DNA of 64,000 nucleotides, taken from contig NZ_KB912877.1 of the NCBI RefSeq assembly GCF_000383855.1, positions 4,917,091-4,981,090 of the forward strand, given 5' to 3'. Under the pieces are notes generated by a model that had not been told where the DNA came from, searched no databases, and was given only the letters and a program-made list of their open reading frames with translations. The position numbers were made by a program, and so were the translations under genes. The stretch comes from Methylobacter marinus A45 (GTDB taxonomy: Bacteria > Pseudomonadota > Gammaproteobacteria > Methylococcales > Methylomonadaceae). This document shows, in pieces, positions 1 to 12,033 of this stretch. The number at the start of each line of letters is the position of its first letter. Positions within the stretch are counted from its first letter, which is position 1.

Positions 1-578
1 GCGCGGAGGAATTGGTCGGCGAGCTGGATGGCTTGCTGGCGTTTGCGGCGCAGGCTGTCGGCTTTGTCGAGGATGGCGGCGATGCGTTTTTGTTCGGCTA
101 GGGGTGGGAGGGGGATTTGTAAATCTCTAATATTACTCAAAGATACAAATTTTTGAGTTCCACCACGTGAATTGCTATTAAATTGCCGTTCAGCCAAGGG
201 ACTGTTTAAAAAATGATAAATATATCTATTAAATACTTTCTCATTGTTAAACTTAAACAACGCCACGTTTTTTATAGAAAAATCACAAGATTTTTCAACA
301 ATTACGGGATTACCTATAGTCCCAATCATTGCATATAAAATATCTCCATCATCAACTGCAGAACGTTTTGAAATAGCATCATGATCTTCTTTAGAAATTA
401 AGTTACAAGTAGAAAAATCGATTTGCCCACTAACTAAGTTCTTGGAAGTAACTAATGGATAACCTTCAATAACATACTTTGGAGAATCATGTGTACCATC
501 TCTGACATCCATGCAATCCTGAGCTTTATACCATTTCCAGCTATTTGGTATGGAATCGTTACATCCAAGCTTAATCAA
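1..578 (-). CDS. hsdS: Type I restriction enzyme specificity subunit HsdS (3' part outside window)
   Basis: This is the DNA-recognition subunit of the type I restriction-modification complex. The minus strand reads open from a TTG at 578 to the window edge, about 192 codons. The first half is one target recognition domain (start [15 protein letters not shown]). It is followed by the conserved segment [20 protein letters not shown] and a coiled-coil spacer ([16 protein letters not shown]) typical of HsdS. The second recognition domain lies outside the window. TTG is the only plausible start I see, and it overlaps the hsdM stop (575-577), so translation is probably coupled. The recognition-domain DNA (about 118-560) is far more AT-rich than the conserved part (1-115), which fits exchange of the recognition domain. 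Confidence 0.9.
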
Positions 579-2086
579 AGCATCCCCTCCAACTCCTTCA
601 ACTCCCGCTGAATCTCATCCTCCAACGCCATCAACCGCTTCAGAATCTCCTTCGGCGGCTCATACTGCGCTTCCTCATGCACCACTTCCTTGTAGCGGTT
701 GATCGACAGATCGTATTTGTTGGCGCGGATTTCGTCCGCCGGCACGGCGAAGCAGGCGGCCGTGCGGTCGCTTGAGCCGGCGCTTTCCCGCTGCCGCCAT
801 TGCTGCAATACGTCCGGCAGGTCGTTGGCGGCAACCGGGTTGCGCTTGTCGTCCAGCGAGTAGCCGTCGGCCTTGACGTCGTAAAACCAGACCTGCTCGG
901 TCCGGCCGCCCTTGGTGAAGATCAGGATGCCCGTGGACACGCCCGCATAGGGCTTGAACACGCCGCTGGGCAGGCTGACGATACCTTCGAGCTGGTTGTC
1001 GTCGAGCAGGTGCCGGCGCAGCGTCTGGTGGGCCTTGGACGAGCCGAACAGCACGCCGTCCGGCACGATGGTGGCGCTGCGGCCGCCGAGTTTGAGCATC
1101 CGGAGAATATGGGCGATGAACAGCAGCTCGGTTTTCTTGGTTTTGACGATGCGCAGGATTTCCGGGTGGGTGCTGGTCTCGTCCAGGCTGCCCTTGAACG
1201 GCGGATTGGCGAGCACGACATCGAAATAATTCTGTTCCTGCCGCGGCCAGTGTTCGTTGATGTTCTTGTTCAGGCTGTCCTGATAATGGATGTTGGCGTG
1301 GCTGACGCCGTGCAGCAGCATGTTCATGCTGGACAGCCTGAGCATGGTGGTGTCGAAATCAAAGCCCCAGAACATGTTGCGCCGGATATGGTCGCGGTAC
1401 GGCTCCAGCAGGTCGCCGACATAGACGTCATGGCCTTCTTCGTCCTGATACAGCGCCTCGGCCGAGGTATGGGTGCGATTCAGGTATTCCATGCCGCGCG
1501 CCAGGAAGCCGGCGGTGCCGCAGGCCGGATCGCAGAGGGTTTCGTCGGGCCTGAGGTCGATCATGGCGACCATCAGGTCGATGATGTGGCGCGGCGTGCG
1601 GAACTGGCCGTTGATGCCGGCGGTGGTCAGCTTGGACAGCAGGTATTCGTACAGGTCGCCCTTGGTGTCTCCGGCCGTCAGCGGCAGTTTTTCGATCATT
1701 TCCACGGCCGCGACCAGCAGGGATTCGCTTTTGATTTCCATGTCGGCGTCGCGCATGTATTCGCCGAAATCGGTATCGGCCAGCGTGACCTTGGCAAAAT
1801 GCGGAAAGACGTTGGTTTTGACATGCTTGAGCATGTCTTTGCCGGCCAGATGGCGGAAGTTCTGCCAGCGCAGCAACTGCCCGTCCGGGTCTTCCGGAAA
1901 CAGGCGTTTGAACGGCCTGTTGCTGCGCGCGGCCACGCGTTCGTTGTTGGTTTCCTGGATGTCGAGCAGGCGCGCGAACATCAGGAAGGAGATTTGTTCG
2001 ATGACGGTCAAGGGGTTGGTAATGCCGCCGGTCCAGAATTTTTCCCAGAGTTGGTCGATTTGGTTGCGTAGTTGTCCGGTTATCAT
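575..2086 (-). CDS. hsdM: Type I restriction-modification methyltransferase subunit HsdM
   Basis: This N6-adenine methyltransferase subunit (503 aa) acts with HsdS to modify host DNA and with HsdR to restrict. An N-terminal helical HsdM_N region (about 1-135) precedes the catalytic domain. The AdoMet-binding motif DPACGTAGF is at about residues 186-194 and the catalytic NPPF at 294-297, both intact. The length is normal for the family. It lies 255 bp downstream of hsdR, and that gap holds a palindromic repeat cluster. Its stop overlaps the hsdS start. Confidence 0.97.
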
Positions 2087-2204
2087 GAGTTCCTGATTTT
2101 TTATATGGTTGACACAGAGCGGGCAGAGATAAAAATATCTAATTTATGTCTCTGTGCAGCCTGTGGTTTTGTAATCTGAGTCGTGTTGATGGCGCTTTTT
2201 TTAT

Positions 2205-2302
2205 GGTTCCCACGCTCCGGCGTGGGAACCCAGCCGTTGACGCTACGGCGTCACGCACCGCTGGAGCGGTGCCAGCGGCATTCCCACGCCGGAGCGTGGG
2301 AA
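2205..2302. repeat. BIME-like cluster of four palindromes between hsdR and hsdM
   Basis: Two inverted copies of one palindrome lie at 2205-2230 (arms GGTTCCCACGC/GCGTGGGAACC) and 2281-2302 (arms TTCCCACGC/GCGTGGGAA). Between them are two further hairpins: GACGC-TACG-GCGTC (2239-2252) and GCACCGCT-GG-AGCGGTGC (2255-2272). This is the layout of REP/BIME elements. Degenerate traces of the same GGTTCCCACG motif occur near 55.95 kb and 56.15 kb. The hairpins could attenuate or stabilise the transcript between hsdR and hsdM. Confidence 0.85.
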
Positions 2303-2341
2303 CGATGAAATGCGTGTCTGCGGCTGCGTAAATTCTGTCCA

Positions 2342-5300
2342 TTATACATTCCGCTCCGTTTGCTGCTGCAGCATAAACGGCTTCAACAAGGCGAACAGTT
2401 CATCGGCCTGTTCGATTTTGAAGATGCCGTCGATGCCTTCCGAATGCAGGTTGGAAAACGGGGCGTCGTAAAGTTTCTCGACGGTGATGAAGCCGTTCTG
2501 CGCGATGTAGCTTTTCAGCAGGTTCAGGAACCGGACCTGCAAGGCGGTCAATTGCGCGTGCTGGTGCAGAAATGCGGTGAAGTTCTGCTCGACTTTTTCC
2601 GGGTCCAGGCCGATCAGCGCGCGGATGGCCAGATGCAGGTTGCCGGCCGTGTCCGGGAAGAATGCCTGCAAGGTCGCCAGATCGACGCCGGGGTTCTGGG
2701 TCAGCACCAGGGATGTCAGCTGCTGCAGTTCGGCATCGGTGACCGGCTGGCCTTTGTGGATTTGCTGCAGGGTGGTGCTGCTTTCCAGCAGGTCTTGCAG
2801 GATGACCTTGAGTTTGAATTTATAGGCGATAGCTTCGGTGCCGGTCAGATTGGGCTTGATGTCGACGCTGTAGATGCCGTCCCGCTGTTCGATCACGTCG
2901 ATTTGCTTGACGCCCCCGCCCGGCTCGTTGATGCCCTGCTGGTATTTCATGAGTCCGCGCAGTTCCAGGCGCAGGTTTTCCAGGGCGTTGAAGTCGGCGC
3001 TGTCCCACCAGCCTTGCTTTTTTATGGCCTTGATGAGGTCGTCCTTGTCGCGCACGGCTTTGATGGTGATGGCGAGCCGGTCCACGCGGGCCAGCAGTTC
3101 CAGCTGCCGGTCCTGAAAACAGCTGGCTTTTTTGACGAAGCAGTCCTGCAGCTCGGCGGCCAGGCGGTCGAACTTGACGGCGTCGCTGTCGCTGAGCCGG
3201 CGGTTGCCCATCAGCGGCGCGATGGTTTTGCGCAGCAGCTGCCGGGTCGCCGGCGTGAACGCTTCCAGCACGCCGGGCTGCAGCAGCTGGTGGATGGTTT
3301 TGAGTTCGCTGCGGACCTGAACGCTGTTTTGCGGCAGATCGTTGATGTCCTGCCTGAGCAAGGCTATGGCGGTATCGAAGCCGTCCCGGTGGTTGTTGGC
3401 GACGGCGGTGTCGCACAGTTGCAGCCGGGCTTCGAACAGGTGCTGCAGCACCGATTTGCTCTCGCTGATTTCGGCTTCTTCGTATTCTTCTTCAAAATAC
3501 TTGAAGTTGCTGTAGTGGTCGAAAATCAGGAATGCCTGCTTGTCCTTGCCGGGACCGAACAGGTTTTCGCACAGCCGGGTGCCGCGGCCGATCATCTGCC
3601 AGAATTTGACCCAGGATTTCACCGGCTTGGCGAACACCAGATTCACGACTTCCGGCACGTCGACGCCGGTGTCGAGCATGTCGACGGAGATGGCGATGCG
3701 GAAGTTGCTCTTGCCCTGCTTGAATTCGTCGATCAGCGCTTCCGCGAGCGGTATTTTGTTGTGGATGACCTTACAGACCGCATCGCCGTATTGCGGGTAC
3801 AGTTCGGCGAAGGTTTCCTGCAGGGCCTCGGCATGCTTCTGGCTGCGGGCGAACAGGATGGTCTTGCCGACCAGCGAGCCGGTATCGTCCTTGATGCCGT
3901 TGGTCATCAGGTTTTGCAGGATCACGCGGTCGGTGTCCTTATTGAACACGGCCTTGCCGATGTCCTTGCCCTGGTAGTCGAAGGCTTCGGCCTCATCGTC
4001 CTGCTCCTGGAGCTGTTCGCGCTGGTCTTCGCTCAGGCTGGCCCATTTGATGCCTTCGCGCAGGAAGTGGGTGGTCAGGTCCTTGACCTTGAACGGCACC
4101 AGATAGGGCGGCACGTTGTTGATCGCCTGCTCCAGGCTGAACTGGAAGGTCGGGTCCTGGTTCTCGCATTCGAACAGCGCGTAGGTGTTGCGGCTGATGA
4201 ATTTGACCGGCGTGGCGGTCAGGCCGATCTGCAGGGCGTCGAAGTAGATGAACAGGTCGCGGTATTTGTTGTAGATGGAGCGGTGCGATTCGTCGGCGAT
4301 GATCAGGTCGAAAAAGCCGATGTCGAACTGCTCGAACCGGTTCATCATGGCCGGATAGGTGGACACGTAAACGCGGGCGTTGGCATCGACGGCTTTGGTT
4401 TCGCCGATGATGCAGCGCGGCTCGGAAGGCAGGTAGGTTTTGAAGGCGTCGGCGGCCTGCTTGCGCAGTTCGTTGCGGTCGCACAGGAACAGGATGCGCT
4501 TGGCCCAGCCGGTCCTGAGCAGCAGTTCCGCGAGCGCTATCGCCACGCGCGTCTTGCCGGTGCCGGTGGCCTGCACGAGCAGGGCTTTGCGGCGCTGGTT
4601 CTGAAAGCGTTCGGCGACGGCCTTGATGGCTTCTATCTGATACGGGCGGCCGGCGATGGCGGCGTCGGGGTTGAATTTTTCCGGTTCCGGCTGCCGGTGA
4701 AAGCGCTGGTACAGCAGGTATTGCAGGCTTTCCTTGCTGTAGAAGCCGTAAACGGTGCGCGCGCTGTTGTATTGCCTGTCGTCCCACAGGCCGATTTCGT
4801 AGCCGTTGGTGTAGAAAATGACCGGGCGCTGGCCATGGGTTTTTTCCAGTCCGTCGGCATAGATGCGGGCCTGCTCGCGGCCCAGGCTCAACTTCTCGGA
4901 GGCTTTCTTGGCCTCGATCACGGCCAGCGGCTTGCCGTCGTCGCCCCAGAGCACATAGTCGGCCTTGCCCAAGCCGCTGGCGGTCGGTTGATGTTGAACC
5001 TCCCATTCCAGGGTCACCTGGTTCCTGTTGCCGATGTCCCAGCCGGCTTTGGCCAGCAGCGCATCGATCATCAGTGCGCGGGTCTTGGCTTCGCTCCAGG
5101 CCAGCGCATCGCTGACCTGCCGGCTGCTGGCGGCCGAAGCCTGGCGCTCTTCGGCCGTGGCCTCCTGTAGTTTGGCGCCGGCCCGAAGCTGTTCGATTTC
5201 CTCCAACAAGCGTTCCAGTTCTTCGGTTTTTTGCTGGGCGATCTTTTTGTAATGCTGGCTGTCGCGTTGCAGCGCCGCCGTTTGTTTGTTGATATCGGGC

Positions 5301-5710
5301 GGCTCCTGAAAGGTCGGGATCTCGTCCCTGTCGACGGCGTAATAGCGCAAGGCCAGATAGGCCGTCACCTGTTGCGCGACGCCCAGGGCGATCATCGCCG
5401 TGCGCAAATCGCCGGATTCGCCGTGGGCCGGGCCATTGCCCTGGATGCGCAGGTAGTTGAGATTGGTTATCAGCGGTTTGCTGGCGACTTCCTGAAAGGC
5501 CGCATCGTTGATCAGGTCGATCAACTGCGGACGGTGCAGTTTCGGCAGGTGCTCCAGTTGATGAATGGTTTTGACGACCTGCTCGGCCAGCGTGCGCAGT
5601 TTCACCAGGCTGCTGCCGGGATCGACATACAGATGGTATTCGGCCAGGCCGCCCAGATCGGCCAGTTCGGGCCGGTGCGGCCTGATAAATTCGAAGTTCA
5701 GTGATTGCAT
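2342..5710 (-). CDS. hsdR: Type I restriction endonuclease subunit HsdR (EcoEI-like)
   Basis: This is the ATP-dependent translocase and nuclease subunit. Numbering from an upstream in-frame ATG at 5734, the order is: a DUF4145-like region (about 10-135); a coiled coil (150-200); an HsdR_N nuclease of PD-(D/E)xK type (D259, then E274-A-K276 in VIEAKKAS); a helicase with Walker A QATGTGKT (about 388-395) and an ADESH box; a second RecA-like domain (DMLDTGVDVPEVVN, IGRGTR); and an EcoEI_R_C-type C-terminus. In-frame ATGs lie at 5734, 5725 and 5710. I chose 5710 (MQSLNFEF) because the sigma-54 promoter at 5737-5753 places the transcript start near 5726, downstream of the first ATG. It follows the CARF-sigma-54 regulator directly. 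Confidence 0.95.
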   Translation of the reverse strand: MQSLNFEFIRPHRPELADLGGLAEYHLYVDPGSSLVKLRTLAEQVVKTIHQLEHLPKLHRPQLIDLINDAAFQEVASKPLITNLNYLRIQGNGPAHGESGDLRTAMIALGVAQQVTAYLALRYYAVDRDEIPTFQEPPDINKQTAALQRDSQHYKKIAQQKTEELERLLEEIEQLRAGAKLQEATAEERQASAASSRQVSDALAWSEAKTRALMIDALLAKAGWDIGNRNQVTLEWEVQHQPTASGLGKADYVLWGDDGKPLAVIEAKKASEKLSLGREQARIYADGLEKTHGQRPVIFYTNGYEIGLWDDRQYNSARTVYGFYSKESLQYLLYQRFHRQPEPEKFNPDAAIAGRPYQIEAIKAVAERFQNQRRKALLVQATGTGKTRVAIALAELLLRTGWAKRILFLCDRNELRKQAADAFKTYLPSEPRCIIGETKAVDANARVYVSTYPAMMNRFEQFDIGFFDLIIADESHRSIYNKYRDLFIYFDALQIGLTATPVKFISRNTYALFECENQDPTFQFSLEQAINNVPPYLVPFKVKDLTTHFLREGIKWASLSEDQREQLQEQDDEAEAFDYQGKDIGKAVFNKDTDRVILQNLMTNGIKDDTGSLVGKTILFARSQKHAEALQETFAELYPQYGDAVCKVIHNKIPLAEALIDEFKQGKSNFRIAISVDMLDTGVDVPEVVNLVFAKPVKSWVKFWQMIGRGTRLCENLFGPGKDKQAFLIFDHYSNFKYFEEEYEEAEISESKSVLQHLFEARLQLCDTAVANNHRDGFDTAIALLRQDINDLPQNSVQVRSELKTIHQLLQPGVLEAFTPATRQLLRKTIAPLMGNRRLSDSDAVKFDRLAAELQDCFVKKASCFQDRQLELLARVDRLAITIKAVRDKDDLIKAIKKQGWWDSADFNALENLRLELRGLMKYQQGINEPGGGVKQIDVIEQRDGIYSVDIKPNLTGTEAIAYKFKLKVILQDLLESSTTLQQIHKGQPVTDAELQQLTSLVLTQNPGVDLATLQAFFPDTAGNLHLAIRALIGLDPEKVEQNFTAFLHQHAQLTALQVRFLNLLKSYIAQNGFITVEKLYDAPFSNLHSEGIDGIFKIEQADELFALLKPFMLQQQTERNV

Positions 5711-5736
5711 GATGATTTTGTCCATGAGCTGCATTT

Positions 5737-5753
5737 AGCGAAAAGCGTGCCAA
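5737..5753 (-). promoter_or_regulatory. Sigma-54 (-24/-12) promoter driving hsdR
   Basis: The minus strand reads TTGGCACGCTTTTCGCT. The consensus is TTGGCACG-N4-TTGCW, so the -24 element is perfect and the -12 element (TCGCT) has one mismatch. GG and GC are separated by exactly 10 bases. The first base lies immediately after the stop codon (5754-5756) of a gene encoding a sigma-54 activator, and the promoter points into hsdR. Expected transcript start is about 5726. Confidence 0.85.
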
Positions 5754-7268
5754 TTACAGTTTTATATCGTATTTTTTTATCCAGTTGTTGAGCGTCTGGT
5801 AGTTGCTGAACTTGAGCAGTTCCGCAGCCCTGGTTTTGTTGTTGCCGGTCAGCTTGAGCGCACGGTGCAGATAGTGTTCGGCGACTTGGGAGATAACCGC
5901 CTGTAAATCAAAGCCTTCTTCGATGGGCTGATGCAGGATGGTTTCCGCCGCTGCGTCGGTCTGCCGCCTTTTCAGCAGCGCGTCCTGGATGTCCTGCTGG
6001 CCGATGATCTCCGCCTCGGACCAGAGTACGGCCCGGGTCAGGGTGTTGGCCAGTTCGCGTATATTACCAGGCCAGTCGTGATTGAGCAGAACGTTTCTTG
6101 CGGAAACAGAAAGTTTCTTATTGACCCAGGCCGGCTCCGCGACGCTCTCCTTGTTGATCCTGTCCAGCAAGGAATCGATCAGTAGATTCAGATCCCCGGC
6201 CCGGTCTTTCAGAGCGGGCAATTTGATGATGGCGACGGCCAGTCGGTAAAACAGGTCTTCCCGGAAGCGCCCCGCCGCCACGTCATCGATCAGTACGCGG
6301 TGAGTTGCCGCGATGATGCGCACGTTGAGTTTTACCGGTCTGCTGGCGCCGACCCTGACCACCTCGCCTTCCTGCAATACCCGCAGCAGCTTGACCTGCA
6401 TGGCCAGCGGCAATTCGCCGATTTCATCGAGAAACAGCGTGCCGTTGTCGGCGGTTTCAAAATGGCCGTGTCTGCTGCCGGCCGCGCCGGTGAAAGCGCC
6501 TTTCTCGTGGCCGAAAAATTCGGACTCGACCAGTTCCGGCGAGATGGCGCCGCAATTGACGGCGATGAAAGGCTTGTCCCGCCTGGGGCTGGTGTTGTGA
6601 ATGGCGCGCGCCAGCAGTTCCTTGCCGGTGCCGCTGTCGCCTTCGATCAGGACCGGCACGGATCGGGGCGCTACACGGTGGGCTTTGGCGACGACCCGCT
6701 TCATCACGTCGCTTTGATGGACGATCGCCGAGAACGCCGGCGCCTCATCCGGCAAACCGGCGCTCAGCCGGGCGATATCGGCATCGGCACGCTTGTAAAG
6801 ATCGGGGATATACTCGGCCGAGAGCTCAAAGGGTACCGTGGCGGTTTTGACGCCGTTCTCTTTCGAGGATTCGATCAGTTCCGCGGCAAAGCGGGTTTTT
6901 GCCAGAATGATCCAGACGGCCGCCATTGCCGGCGTGCCGGGACTCAGATGAAATGTCAGTTTCGCATCCTGATACGCCGGAATGTTTTCAATGCAGTGCG
7001 ATACCGCCTGGTAGATCTCGCCAAAATGCGTGGGGCTCGACAGTACAACGGGGTGGTACTGAATCGCGCTGCCGGTATGTTGCCCGAGCCAATCGATAAA
7101 GCCACGGGCTTCATTGTCGGGATAGCTGCTGAAAAGATAAATCTGATCGAAGGATCGCTGTAAGACAGCCTGCGCAATAGGCCCAATGCCCGCCGCCTCG
7201 ATATTTTCGGCGGCATTGAGGTCGGTTTTCCCTATCCAGCTTAGCAATATGCGTTGAGATTCAGCCAC
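5754..7268 (-). CDS. CARF-domain sigma-54 activator (RtcR-like architecture)
   Basis: A 504-aa enhancer-binding protein. Residues 1-150 look like a CARF (Rossmann-like) ligand sensor: strand RILLSWIG, then LTFHLSPGTPAMAAVWIILAKT at 104-125, where SPGTPAM resembles the nucleotide-contacting motif of Csm6/Csx1-type CARF domains. The same place in E. coli RtcR reads, from memory, ITTGTH. The AAA+ domain (about 180-420) has Walker A GDSGTGKE (210-217), the sigma-54 contact loop GAFTGA (257-262) and Walker B LFLDEIGE (278-285). A Fis-type HTH ends the protein (about 465-500). The start is GTG at 7268. No rtcA/rtcB genes are nearby; the next gene is hsdR behind a -24/-12 promoter. I infer it senses a nucleotide or RNA-derived ligand and activates the restriction operon. 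Confidence 0.88.
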   Translation of the reverse strand: MAESQRILLSWIGKTDLNAAENIEAAGIGPIAQAVLQRSFDQIYLFSSYPDNEARGFIDWLGQHTGSAIQYHPVVLSSPTHFGEIYQAVSHCIENIPAYQDAKLTFHLSPGTPAMAAVWIILAKTRFAAELIESSKENGVKTATVPFELSAEYIPDLYKRADADIARLSAGLPDEAPAFSAIVHQSDVMKRVVAKAHRVAPRSVPVLIEGDSGTGKELLARAIHNTSPRRDKPFIAVNCGAISPELVESEFFGHEKGAFTGAAGSRHGHFETADNGTLFLDEIGELPLAMQVKLLRVLQEGEVVRVGASRPVKLNVRIIAATHRVLIDDVAAGRFREDLFYRLAVAIIKLPALKDRAGDLNLLIDSLLDRINKESVAEPAWVNKKLSVSARNVLLNHDWPGNIRELANTLTRAVLWSEAEIIGQQDIQDALLKRRQTDAAAETILHQPIEEGFDLQAVISQVAEHYLHRALKLTGNNKTRAAELLKFSNYQTLNNWIKKYDIKL

Positions 7269-7445
7269 CCCGTCCCTTGTATAAATATTTTTATGTTTTT
7301 ATAAAGAATAGACTGTTTTTCAGGAAAGCAGGAAAAAATCTTACTTATTATTTAAACTTATAATTTTTAATATTATTATCAACAAGCTCCATATACCATT
7401 TAAACCCCATTTCCTTAACCCCTATGCACGCGGAATTTTGCCAAC

Positions 7446-7462
7446 TGGCACACAATTAGCTA
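7446..7462 (+). promoter_or_regulatory. Candidate sigma-54 promoter facing the response regulator-GGDEF gene
   Basis: TGGCACACAATTAGCTA on the plus strand has GG and GC exactly 10 bases apart. It keeps the TGGCAC of the -24 box and has TAGCT for TTGCW at -12. The expected start is near 7472, giving a leader of about 100 nt. It lies between the divergent CARF-sigma-54 regulator and the 7573 gene. The 7269-7445 stretch upstream is AT-rich and could carry activator sites; I found no further genes there. Confidence 0.6.
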
Positions 7463-7495
7463 TATACGCTAATGAAAAGGCAATATTTGGAAGAG

Positions 7496-7537
7496 CCTGG
7501 TGACCTATCCAGCAAAATGCAAAGGTCATTTGCCAGG
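7496..7537 (+). other. Inverted repeat in the leader of the response regulator-GGDEF gene
   Basis: CCTGG (7496-7500) and TGACCT (7501-7506) are complementary to AGGTCA (7523-7528) and CCAGG (7533-7537). This gives a hairpin with a small internal loop between the putative sigma-54 start and the ATG. It does not match a c-di-GMP riboswitch core that I know. It could be an operator or an RNA structure. Confidence 0.4.
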
Positions 7538-7572
7538 AAGAAACTTTTGGTAATTTTTACTCGGAATATCAA

Positions 7573-8523
7573 ATGCAAAATTCAAGGTACTGTGGGACGG
7601 ACGCTAATTTCGATATCGACACAAAAATTGAGCGTATTTTAATCATTGACGATAGTTCAGTCAGCATCGATCTATTGCGGGCCTCATTGGAACCTGAGTT
7701 TAAGATCTTCACTGCGCTTAATGGACAATCAGGGTATGAGATTGCCAAATTTGAGCAACCGGATCTGATATTGCTTGATATCAATATCCCGGAATTCAAC
7801 GGTTATCAAACCTGCAACCTTTTAAAAAGCGATCCTGATACGCAAGCCATCCCGATTATATTCATGACGGCCTTGATGACCGAGGAAAGCGAAGCCAGGT
7901 CTCTGATGCTGGGCGGCGCCGATACGATCAGCAAGAACACCAATGTCGAAATCATTAAGCTGAGAATAAAGAATCAGATTGAGCTTAAACGTTGCAAGGA
8001 TCTGCTTGAACGTCTGTCAACAACGGATGAATTAACGGGCCTGGCCAACCGGCGCCGGCTTAATGAGTTTCTGTATCAGGAATGGCGGAACATGATGCGC
8101 GCGAAGAATTTTCTCAGCGTCGTATTAATCGATATCGATTATTTCAAGGACTATAACGACCATTATGGTCACATCCTTGGCGACTGCTGCTTAAAGCAAG
8201 TTGCCCAAGTGTTCCAGGAAACACTGTCCCGTCCGGTGGATTTTGTTGCGCGATACGGCGGTGAAGAATTCATTTGCGTGCTCCCCATGACTGCCCCGGC
8301 GGGGGCTGAAATCGTCGGTGAAAGATTGCGCAATGCGGTCATGCGGCAAAGGATACCGCATCAACGGTCCAGTATTGCCGATGTTGTGACGGTGAGTCTT
8401 GGCACCGCGACGGCAATTCCTGGCCCTGGCATCGATGCCGGCGGATTGATCGATTGTGCCGACAAGGCGCTATATCAATCAAAAAACAACGGCAGAAACC
8501 GGGTGACTTGCATCAGGATTTGA
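7573..8523 (+). CDS. Response regulator with GGDEF (diguanylate cyclase) output domain
   Basis: A PleD/WspR-like 316-aa protein that makes c-di-GMP when phosphorylated. The receiver domain (about 20-140) has the acidic pair DD at 26-27 and phosphoacceptor D69 (ILLDINIPE). The GGDEF domain (about 150-315) has an intact GGEEF active site (RYGGEEFICV) and the DxDYFKDYND metal/substrate region. I see no RxxD inhibitory site just before GGEEF. The cognate histidine kinase is not adjacent. A candidate sigma-54 promoter lies 110 bp upstream. The stop is followed two bases later by the 3' end of a convergent tRNA gene. Confidence 0.92.
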   Translation: MQNSRYCGTDANFDIDTKIERILIIDDSSVSIDLLRASLEPEFKIFTALNGQSGYEIAKFEQPDLILLDINIPEFNGYQTCNLLKSDPDTQAIPIIFMTALMTEESEARSLMLGGADTISKNTNVEIIKLRIKNQIELKRCKDLLERLSTTDELTGLANRRRLNEFLYQEWRNMMRAKNFLSVVLIDIDYFKDYNDHYGHILGDCCLKQVAQVFQETLSRPVDFVARYGGEEFICVLPMTAPAGAEIVGERLRNAVMRQRIPHQRSSIADVVTVSLGTATAIPGPGIDAGGLIDCADKALYQSKNNGRNRVTCIRI

Positions 8524-10000: not shown

Positions 10001-11167
10001 CTATTTATTGCCCTGTCCTGCTTCGGTAAACAGCACTATTCTGTTTCTACCGGCCGCTTTCGCGGCATACAGGGCTTTGTCCGCGTAATGGATTAACAGG
10101 TCGATATTCAGGTCGTCTTGGTTCAGGTGCTCTTCGGCCAGGCAATAGAGCCCGATGCTGGCGGTTATCCGCACTGGCTGCTGCTTGCACAGACAACGCA
10201 GCGATTCGATTTTTTTCCTGATCCGCTCGGCGAACAATTGACCTTTGCTGTCATTCATATTGGTAAATACCATGACAAATTCCTCACCACCGAAACGCGC
10301 CAGAATATCCGACTCACGAATTTCCTCTTTGATGGCCCGCGAAACATCTTTCAGAACAGTATCGCCAAACCCATGGCCGTAAACATCATTAATTTCCTTG
10401 AAATGATCGAGATCCAAAACCATCAGGCAAAGCGCCTGACGCTGGCTCCTTGAGCGGGCCAGCGCCGTTTCGATTTGCGCGTAAAAATAGCGGCGGTTGT
10501 ATAGCCCGGTCAATTCATCGCGCATGGACATGTTTTCATGGTGTTCCTTTAGCAACCTGACATCTTCCAGAGCCCTTTCCAGATGCCGGGTCCGGACAGC
10601 AATCTGTTCCTCCATGCGTTGCAGTAACCGATAGTTGGCAATCAGTTCACCCATCATGTTCTTATAAATATGCAGAAGCCGGATATGCCATTCCGAGAAA
10701 TAATTGACTTCGGGATGGGAGATGTTCAGGACCCCTACCAATTCACCGGCGGCAAAAATAGGCCCGCTGATGACGGATCCCGGCGACACGTCTTCGGCCT
10801 GCTGAAAAAATCGCTTATCTTCCTTGCAATTCATGCATTGTTGCAATTCGCCGGTTTTCGCCGCCTGGCCGATGATACCCTGGCCCATTTTGAATTTTAA
10901 CGGCGCTCGTGCCGTTCTTTCCGCGCCGGAATATTCCTTGCTGCTGATGCCGGTCAGGTTCACCAGGCATTGTTCTTCATCGAGAATGAAAAACGAGCAA
11001 CGCTCCATGTCCTGGTTACAGATCAGGATGGATAACGCTTTGAAAATGAGTTCTTTTTCGCTAGCGGCCTGACTGTTTAATTCTGAAAGCCCCCTGATGG
11101 CGGATAACGAGTTCAATAAATCAATAATCACATCCGATACACTGAATTGCCCCTGGGCTTGTCTCAT
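10001..11167 (-). CDS. GAF-GGDEF diguanylate cyclase
   Basis: A 388-aa cytoplasmic c-di-GMP synthase. An N-terminal GAF domain (about 25-170) holds CMNCKEDKRFFQ, typical of the 'signal-induced' GAF family. A helical linker (about 180-215) leads to a GGDEF domain with intact GGEEF (RFGGEEFVMVF) and the DxDHFKEINDVYGH motif. Its start is only 3 bases after the stop of the HDOD gene, so it is the last gene of the run that begins at sdhC. Confidence 0.93.
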   Translation of the reverse strand: MRQAQGQFSVSDVIIDLLNSLSAIRGLSELNSQAASEKELIFKALSILICNQDMERCSFFILDEEQCLVNLTGISSKEYSGAERTARAPLKFKMGQGIIGQAAKTGELQQCMNCKEDKRFFQQAEDVSPGSVISGPIFAAGELVGVLNISHPEVNYFSEWHIRLLHIYKNMMGELIANYRLLQRMEEQIAVRTRHLERALEDVRLLKEHHENMSMRDELTGLYNRRYFYAQIETALARSRSQRQALCLMVLDLDHFKEINDVYGHGFGDTVLKDVSRAIKEEIRESDILARFGGEEFVMVFTNMNDSKGQLFAERIRKKIESLRCLCKQQPVRITASIGLYCLAEEHLNQDDLNIDLLIHYADKALYAAKAAGRNRIVLFTEAGQGNK

Positions 11168-11170
11168 TTA

Positions 11171-12033
11171 TTATTTTCCTGCGATTGCTAGCGCTGCTGT
11201 ATAAATATTGTTTTTTGCCGCGAGAAGATCATCAATAACCGATTGCGCCCGGGCCGCGGAAACCCCGAACGCTTCGAGCCGCTTGACGAATAAAGGCAAT
11301 TCGTCCTGTTGGCCGGACAGCATTTTCTTGGCTGTCGCGAAACATACCGCCAATAAGTCGATCATTCGCCTTTCACTCCCGGTGTAGTCGGTGTTTTTAA
11401 ACTCCCTTAAAGTAACCGAATAGATGCGCGGCAAATGCCAATGAGCCAGCAGCACGCTTCCGAGCTCATACTGATGCTCCCCCATGGCGGCCAGCATTTC
11501 CCGGGAGACCGAACTGCCGTTTGTATTGGCACTCAGTAAAACCTGGTTTAACTCTTCAGGCCACATATAAACCGCGGTAATCAGCCCGATATTAAGCAAT
11601 AAGCCGGCTGTATAGGCCGTGGAGGGCGTCAGATCTCATCGGAACTCAGCTGACTGAATTGCTGAGCCAATATCGCGGTCAACAAGGCATCCATCCAGAA
11701 ACGCTCACTGTCAAACTGACTGCATTTCTGGGTGTTCAATTCCAGATTCAAAACCACACCAACCGTAAGGCATTTAACCAGATTAAACCCGAGGACGCGT
11801 ATAATTGCAAATTTGAGATCGTTGACCTTGCCCGCATGGCCGAAATAAGCTGAATTGGCCAACCCTATCAGCCGGCCGACAAGCACCGGCGAAGTCGAAA
11901 GCACGGTTGCAAGCTCATCAATACTGATATCGGGATCGTTGACCGCCTGCAGGATTTTAATGCCGTCAACCGAAAGTGTGGGAAGATTTTTTATTCTTGA
12001 AACCTTCAGATTAATTTCATCCGCAACTGTCAT
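11171..12033 (-). pseudogene. HDOD-domain signalling protein, interrupted by a -1 frameshift
   Basis: Two adjacent reading frames encode the halves of one HDOD protein. The first (12033-11629) has the HDOD start PTLSVDGIKILQAVNDPDIS and stops after SQLSSDEI. The second, entered by a one-base shift near 11636-11640, continues DLTPSTAYTAGLLLNIG, the typical HDOD 'AGLLxxIG' core, and runs to 11171. One missing base in GATGAGATCTGA explains the break, either a real mutation or a sequencing error. Restored length is about 287 aa. HDOD proteins are non-catalytic HD relatives that act in signalling. It starts 4 bases after ygfX and is followed by the GGDEF gene. Confidence 0.85.

Follow-up and report, generated by a model that had tools for sequence, protein, structure and literature searches.

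A CARF-domain sigma-54 activator predicted to switch on a type I restriction operon in Methylobacter marinus A45

The locus described here lies in a 64,000-nucleotide (nt) stretch of the Methylobacter marinus A45 genome (NCBI RefSeq assembly GCF_000383855.1, contig NZ_KB912877.1, positions 4,917,091 to 4,981,090), referred to below as the window. On the minus strand, a gene for a predicted CARF-domain regulator is followed in the same direction by the type I restriction genes hsdR, hsdM and hsdS, and a -24/-12 promoter sequence is placed at the boundary. An earlier note, prepared from the sequence alone, had named these parts and had proposed that a nucleotide or RNA-end signal induces restriction through the regulator. 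The features are given below in window coordinates (aa, amino acids; HTH, helix-turn-helix; ORF, open reading frame):

5754..7268, minus strand: CARF-AAA+-HTH sigma-54 activator of the RtcR_PspF2 family, 504 aa, GTG start
6756..7268, minus strand: predicted CARF domain, residues 1-171 (AlphaFold2 model, Foldseek and VIA matches, conservation)
6225..6725, minus strand: sigma-54-interacting AAA+ domain, residues 182-348 (PF00158, E 2e-70)
6483..6500, minus strand: GAFTGA loop, residues 257-262, read from the translation
5808..5873, minus strand: Fis-type HTH, residues 466-487 (PF02954, E 0.0054, below the Pfam cut-off)
5737..5752, minus strand: -24/-12 sigma-54 promoter sequence TGGCACGCTTTTCGCT, starting one base past the regulator stop codon
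2342..5734, minus strand: hsdR as longest ORF (PADLOC REase_I, 1197 bits)
575..2086, minus strand: hsdM (PF02384, PF12161; PADLOC MTase_I, 611 bits)
1..578, minus strand: hsdS, cut by the window start (Methylase_S, E 2e-26); the whole gene is at 10479-11669(-) of locus L009

By its sequence, the regulator is an intact sigma-54 activator. The ORF gave 236 bits with Sigma54_activat and also matched AAA_lid_14, the GAFTGA loop is present in the translation, and the C-terminal HTH that completes the layout of a bacterial enhancer-binding protein was found as a weak HTH_8 match under the cut-off; the AAA+ and HTH assignments of the earlier note are upheld to this extent. The PADLOC model RtcR_PspF2--CARF_AAA_HTH (PDLC01995) was matched over its full length (profile 1-481 of 481) with 678 bits, which places the protein in this family, and the PspF1 (246 bits) and RtcR (202 bits) models stayed far under that score. 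The name PspF2 reportedly goes back to a CARF classification of 2020. Against the RtcR equivalog model NF038308 (NCBIfam, cut-off 650 bits) the regulator gave 351.8 bits, and its neighbours are hsdR and a GGDEF gene, not the rtcBA genes expected beside an RtcR.

The CARF-like N-terminus read by the earlier note, which had suggested structure prediction as a check, was supported by modelling: residues 1-171 were modelled with AlphaFold2 at a predicted local distance difference test score (pLDDT) of 87.5 and the model matched CARF structures in Foldseek and VIA searches, though the Pfam RtcR model gave E 0.042 only. A CARF fold is predicted on this basis. The Rossmann-like fold of the CARF superfamily is present in the model, and the K/R of the [DN]x[ST]xxx[RK] signature after strand 4 is missing. 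The motifs read in the regulator are W-I-G-x-T-D after strand 1 and H-L-S-P-G-T-P after strand 4; among 60 relatives, the positions of the strand-4 motif H-x-S-x-x-x-P are nearly invariant (H107 in 59/60, S109 in 60/60, P113 in 57/60 with S in the other three).

With a hand-made consensus matrix for sigma-54 sites, no other position on either strand of the window scored as high as the promoter sequence TGGCACGCTTTTCGCT; by chance, a 60-nt boundary should contain about 0.0002 such scores. By sequence, a -24/-12 promoter thus stands before the first gene of the operon. Its conservation was followed in 93 loci (80 named genome contigs and 13 from the order), with genes called by script as greedy longest ORFs. 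Fifteen loci were kept outside the promoter count (regulator ORF below 450 aa, cut by a contig end, or less than 200 nt downstream), which left 78 evaluable; some loci are near duplicates (L115/L116) or come from the same genome, and p-values take loci as independent. A site scoring at least 12 was found after the regulator in 55 of the 66 loci with a same-strand next gene; of the 621 other gene ends in these loci, 7 had such a site. The genome search for the same gene order that the earlier note had proposed returned the regulator followed by hsdR in 41 evaluable relatives, 38 of which carry such a site, so the promoter noted between the two genes is a conserved one. Its place is nearly fixed: sites of at least 10 started 0-4 nt past the regulator stop codon in 47/66 same-strand loci and at 0/621 control gene ends, and the opposite strand at the same boundary gave none in 78 loci. 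Among the 12 loci with an opposite-strand or no called neighbour, a site of at least 12 was present in three: in L021 and L065 no gene of at least 150 aa was called in the short contig remainder after the regulator, and in L064 an opposite ORF overlaps the expected operon start and is followed by hsdM.

Controls were taken from the same genome. The other type I loci gave 11.8 ahead of one hsdR (L124), values in L125 were low, and no activator of the CARF-sigma-54 type was found beside these two loci. One of six measured other activators of the genome had a site of at least 12 after its stop codon (L005, 13.2 at +56). The rpoN gene was present in 56 of 57 regulator-bearing genomes, including that of M. 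marinus A45.

All three hsd genes were confirmed on the minus strand downstream of the regulator, as the earlier note had stated, and together they make up a type I restriction-modification (RM) system. The predicted transcription start (about 5725) falls after the ATG at 5734 that opens the longest hsdR ORF, and the real start of hsdR is therefore likely to be the ATG at 5725 or at 5710. Among the 41 relatives in which hsdR comes next, 32 have an in-frame ATG or GTG no more than 2 nt from the predicted start of transcription; a second ATG is often found 9-18 nt further on, and the window fits this pattern with its two ATGs. The gap between hsdR and hsdM is 255 nt in the window, where hsdS overlaps hsdM by 4 nt. 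In relatives the first gap measured at most 60 nt in 21/36 (a 4-nt overlap in ten of these) and more than 100 nt in 14, some of the gaps being inflated by fragmented hsdR genes, and the hsdM-hsdS gap was at most 30 nt in 26/32. As both gaps are mostly short, hsdM and hsdS would often be induced with hsdR. A sigma-70 scan gave no minus-strand site in the hsdR-hsdM gap of the window. A repetitive extragenic palindromic (REP)-like element was read by eye in this gap (about 2195-2310). The operon is followed in the genome by a gene for a 488-aa Schlafen-AlbA_2/HATPase_c_4 protein (L009, 8242-9708(-)), and an ORF of 488 aa likewise follows hsdS in L108.

In some loci with divergent genes the site was found on the other side of the regulator. 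The downstream gene is convergent in L012, L015, L016 and L017, which have no site after the regulator, and the contig ends downstream of the regulator in L014; all five carry, 147-149 nt from the regulator start, a site of 12.3-17.6 that faces the divergent gene. Where the upstream gene is divergent, 20 of 55 loci had a reverse-strand site of at least 12; where it is tandem, 1 of 35 had one (Fisher p 2e-4, independence assumed). Several loci have sites on both sides, including L027 (12.2 and 13.5) and L038 (13.7 and 17.0), in which gajA-gajB (Gabija) occupy the divergent side and hsd genes the tandem side; Gabija was assigned in L027 via 83-87% identity to L038. The first divergent gene codes for an ARPP-1 (PF20208) homologue in eight loci (L012, L014, L015, L016, L017, L018, L019 and L022), as called by Pfam in L014 and L022 and by BLASTP in the others (27-92% identity). 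The window itself has a further site upstream of the regulator:

7446..7461, plus strand: second -24/-12-like site TGGCACACAATTAGCT, score 14.06, third best in the window

This site faces a divergent gene for a response-regulator-GGDEF protein (7573-8523(+)), and about 0.004 such scores are expected in the intergenic region. The GGDEF gene with its site may be a second target, or it may belong to another activator.

The regions upstream of the regulators were searched for a possible binding site. By inverted-repeat enumeration, ACAAG-N4-CTTGT was found in seven loci, the shuffle maximum for any dyad being three. The extended form TACAAG-N4-CTTGTA was present with at most two mismatches in 22 of 89 regions, where 1.1 were expected; the 89 regions comprise 88 loci and the window (L033, L043, L063, L071 and L117 of the 93 loci were left out). 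A matrix trained on these 22 regions scored at least 12.8 in 44/89 regulator upstream regions versus 6/690 upstream regions of other genes, and 25 of the 67 non-training regions reached p<=0.01. The palindrome lies within 60 nt of the regulator start in 39 of the 44. It is accompanied by a second copy exactly 20 bp away in 22/44 loci and in 0/6 controls, and each other twin spacing between 10 and 40 bp occurred once at most. In the five divergent loci about 100-120 nt separate it from the -24 box, a common distance for an enhancer. The distance to be bridged in tandem loci would be about 1.5 kb, and there the palindrome may also control the regulator itself. A palindrome closer to the tandem promoter, within the last 300 nt of the regulator gene, was found with at most two mismatches in 1 of 76 regions, and none was supported; recurrent 5-mer dyads there were set aside, since conservation of the C-terminal coding sequence may explain them. 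The corresponding candidate in the window is:

7280..7295, minus strand: weak candidate operator CATAAAAATATTTATA, at -27 of the regulator start, matrix score 9.7

As an operator, CATAAAAATATTTATA is suggestive only. Relatives from the same taxonomic order gave mixed values (whole-region palindrome p 0 to 0.285, <=0.05 in 5 of 11 listed), and the closest relative, L011, has no palindrome; its regulator ORF of 415 aa had been left out of the promoter counts.

A protein search with residues 1-165 returned 3398 relatives, the best being that of Methylobacter sp. BBA5.1 (100% over the searched region). The CARF domain was found at E<=1e-20 in 15 of 301 genomes of the order, this one included, and in 0/3 other genomes of the genus among those listed; the locus is therefore accessory. 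An hsd gene was among the next same-strand genes in 46 of 78 loci. Other cargo comprises ARPP-1, an MkoA-like helicase and a DrmD-like helicase in L014, a DruE-like helicase as second gene in L070, an MkoA-like protein further down in L109 and, adjoining the regulator, an OLD/AAA_15 ATPase with a partner of about 310 aa. This last module was observed in L066 (17651-20244), L087 (7001-12515), L089, L023, L035, L047, L064, L073, L084 and L086, often directly after hsdS or the regulator. The partner carries FIDPY and FHNRYxLSNLGG motifs; two tested partners had no Pfam or PADLOC match, and a structure search found no PDB fold at E<=1e-3, its weak hits being PLD-like and PIN-like. The first genes of L020, L025, L070, L085 and L109 had no PADLOC match, and part of the cargo is therefore not recognised as defence.

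Plasmid copies precede defence-type genes in 5/5 cases, and a site of 13.8-16.1 lies within 20 nt of the stop codon in four of the five. Three precede type I RM genes (Azotobacter, P. luteola and Vitreoscilla); on the Azotobacter plasmid the gene table is empty for 3.5 kb after the regulator, and a split hsdM and hsdS follow. In the Polaromonas and Rhodoferax plasmids the regulator is followed by a VWA-phosphatase-kinase-AAA cluster, which we read as TerY-P-like. Phage records gave no match to the CARF domain. As the relatives place the same kind of regulator and promoter before other defence genes, the module is, by this sequence comparison, portable.

The source of a ligand was looked for by co-occurrence in the 57 regulator-bearing genomes, many of which are drafts; counts are of matches above cut-off, and weaker matches exist. 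Cas10 was present in 25 genomes (Cmr2-type in 12, Csm1-type in 16) and absent in 32, RtcA was present in 13 and SMODS in 9 (48 without), and 20 had none of the three. No partner is obligate, and the lack of a shared dedicated ligand maker fits a signal that any RNA-cleaving event could produce. The genome of M. marinus A45 gave no Cas10 match with two models and no SMODS match. The earlier note had reported no rtc genes in the window; this held for the listed part of the window and not for the genome, in which rtcR-rtcB-rtcA lie at C1:2.56 Mb (rtcB RtcB-like; rtcR 797.3 bits with NF038308) and a second rtcA is found at G000:C1:4420918-4421862 (L126). The genes called around this second rtcA contain no FTGA motif, so that no such activator was seen beside it. 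The strand-4 motif favours, as far as motif likeness can tell, an RtcR-type ligand over a cyclic oligoadenylate.

The DNA itself shows the domains and the order of the genes, the promoter site with its near-fixed place in relatives, and the upstream palindrome shared by many of them. It is predicted, with good though not high confidence, that the CARF sensor-activator switches on hsdR-hsdM-hsdS from the -24/-12 promoter upon binding of a ligand, which is likely to be an RNA end or a related nucleotide and to stem from RNA damage or infection. The steps are modelled on RtcR, which is constitutively active without its CARF domain, this domain acting as a repressor (passages of PMC9650030); the domain binds 5' tRNA halves with a 2',3'-cyclic phosphate end, on which RtcR oligomerises (passages of PMC7790460). 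By analogy, the CARF domain would keep the AAA+ domain from acting as long as no ligand is present. Ligand would allow palindrome-bound dimers to assemble into a hexamer, which would reach the promoter by DNA looping and there open sigma-54 RNA polymerase. The layout suggests that the transcript would begin at the hsdR start codon or slightly upstream of it and would also cover hsdM and hsdS, so that modification would increase along with restriction.

Several observations weigh against this mechanism. Eleven of the 66 same-strand loci score below 12 after the regulator, and L013, L035, L079 and L111, with an opposite-strand neighbour, have no site of at least 12 on either side. The window palindrome CATAAAAATATTTATA is weak and AT-rich (p 0.015 in the -60..0 band and 0.07 for the region as a whole), and the distance of about 1.5 kb between palindrome and promoter in tandem loci is long for an enhancer, though possible. 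Motif likeness is what points to an RtcR-type ligand, BLASTP having given no alignment between the CARF domains of the window regulator and of the RtcR of the same genome. The nearest solved folds are the CARF domains of Csm6, Can2, Cad1 and Card1, many with bound cyclic tetra- or hexaadenylate (cA4/cA6). These folds, and the Cas10 genes of 25/57 genomes, agree with a CARF domain that senses cyclic oligoadenylates from a type III CRISPR Cas10 or a CBASS CD-NTase, restriction being a second arm of that response. The genome of M. marinus A45, which lacks Cas10 and SMODS matches, speaks against such a signal, as do the many regulator-bearing genomes without them and the replacement of the strand-4 K/R by P113 or S. 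The nucleotide or RNA-end input put forward in the earlier note is hence weakened in its cyclic oligoadenylate part, which we consider improbable.

The extent to which expression depends on induction is a further point. Since the regulator and hsdR have the same direction and no minus-strand terminator-like site was found in a scan of 1900-7700, read-through from the regulator's own promoter could possibly give basal hsd expression, which also counts against strict induction. The hsd genes might even be essentially constitutive by read-through, with the sigma-54 promoter adding to expression under a house-keeping stress (RNA damage, for example) rather than upon infection specifically; the rtcRBA RNA-repair pathway of this genome is in line with this, and a constitutive base would keep the chromosome methylated. 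The divergent arrangements, however, permit no read-through yet carry the promoter, and the recognised cargo in relatives is largely antiviral; we regard this explanation as somewhat unlikely, though to be taken seriously. Two states of the chromosome are conceivable: it may be kept methylated by basal read-through, or it may still be unmethylated when induction sets in. That the regulator acts elsewhere and stands before hsdR by chance or through defence-island clustering is very improbable: defence genes do cluster and the CARF domain is rare in the order, but the promoter recurs at the stop codon in several phyla (47/66 versus 0/621).

Beyond switching on hsd in the window, the activator may be part of one portable module, composed of the CARF activator, a doubled TACAAG-N4-CTTGTA enhancer and sigma-54 promoters on both sides, that puts swappable antiviral systems (type I RM, Gabija, Druantia-like, DISARM-like, OLD-ATPase pairs and TerY-P-like) under a single RNA-end or nucleotide alarm. 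Two Magnetococcales loci would fire Gabija in one direction and restriction in the other, modification would be induced with the nuclease, and restriction would be an alarm response and not a standing barrier; the chances of this wider proposal appear evenly balanced. How antiviral systems act is much better understood than how they are regulated, whether ahead of infection or in its course (PMC12255303). If the proposed control is real, a nucleotide-signal sensor wired to restriction genes makes restriction inducible and joins RNA-damage sensing with DNA defence. Reporter assays could be started at once on the near-fixed promoter, on the palindrome and on the two-way layouts, and the plasmid copies in Azotobacter and Polaromonas are possible carriers. 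How the host chromosome would be protected if hsdM were induced only together with hsdR is a puzzle.

Csa3 is a CARF transcription factor with neither AAA+ domain nor sigma-54 step, unlike the window regulator. RtcR is closer: it shares the CARF-AAA+-HTH order, sigma-54 activation of an adjacent operon and, in the RtcR of this genome, H-x-[ST]-x-G-T after strand 4. The window regulator differs from RtcR in its target, which is not rtcBA, and in staying under the RtcR cut-off that the separate RtcR of the genome passes. The RptR regulator (PMC12255303) likewise adjoins a type I RM system and has a conserved binding site; it is a small repressor and not a sigma-54 activator with a CARF sensor.

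Passages of a 2014 paper (PMC4012209) describe RtcR-like CARF proteins as often associated with RM systems, predict sigma-54 activation of restriction upon a phage-related ligand and count RtcR as CARF although it mostly lacks the strand-4 K/R. They contain no non-RM cargo on the same promoter, unlike the relatives described here, and the words promoter and operator have no occurrence in the main text. CoCoNuT superoperons headed by RtcR homologues, and type I RM genes directly after such genes, were reported in 2024 (eLife, passages of PMC11090510); these passages give no -24/-12 site or operator sequence, and Gabija does not occur in the main text. No CoCoNuT genes were named at the window locus, no search having been aimed at them. 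Among the literature matches listed, which include few subscription journals, the stop-codon promoter, the doubled palindrome and the two-way wiring were not found, and no title concerned sigma-54/CARF control of Gabija or mapped promoters of the family. Because the 2014 and 2024 papers anticipated the idea in the parts cited, sigma-54 control of restriction by a CARF regulator is a rediscovery with a good new example; new, as far as the literature searches reach, are the promoter and operator anatomy and part of the cargo range.
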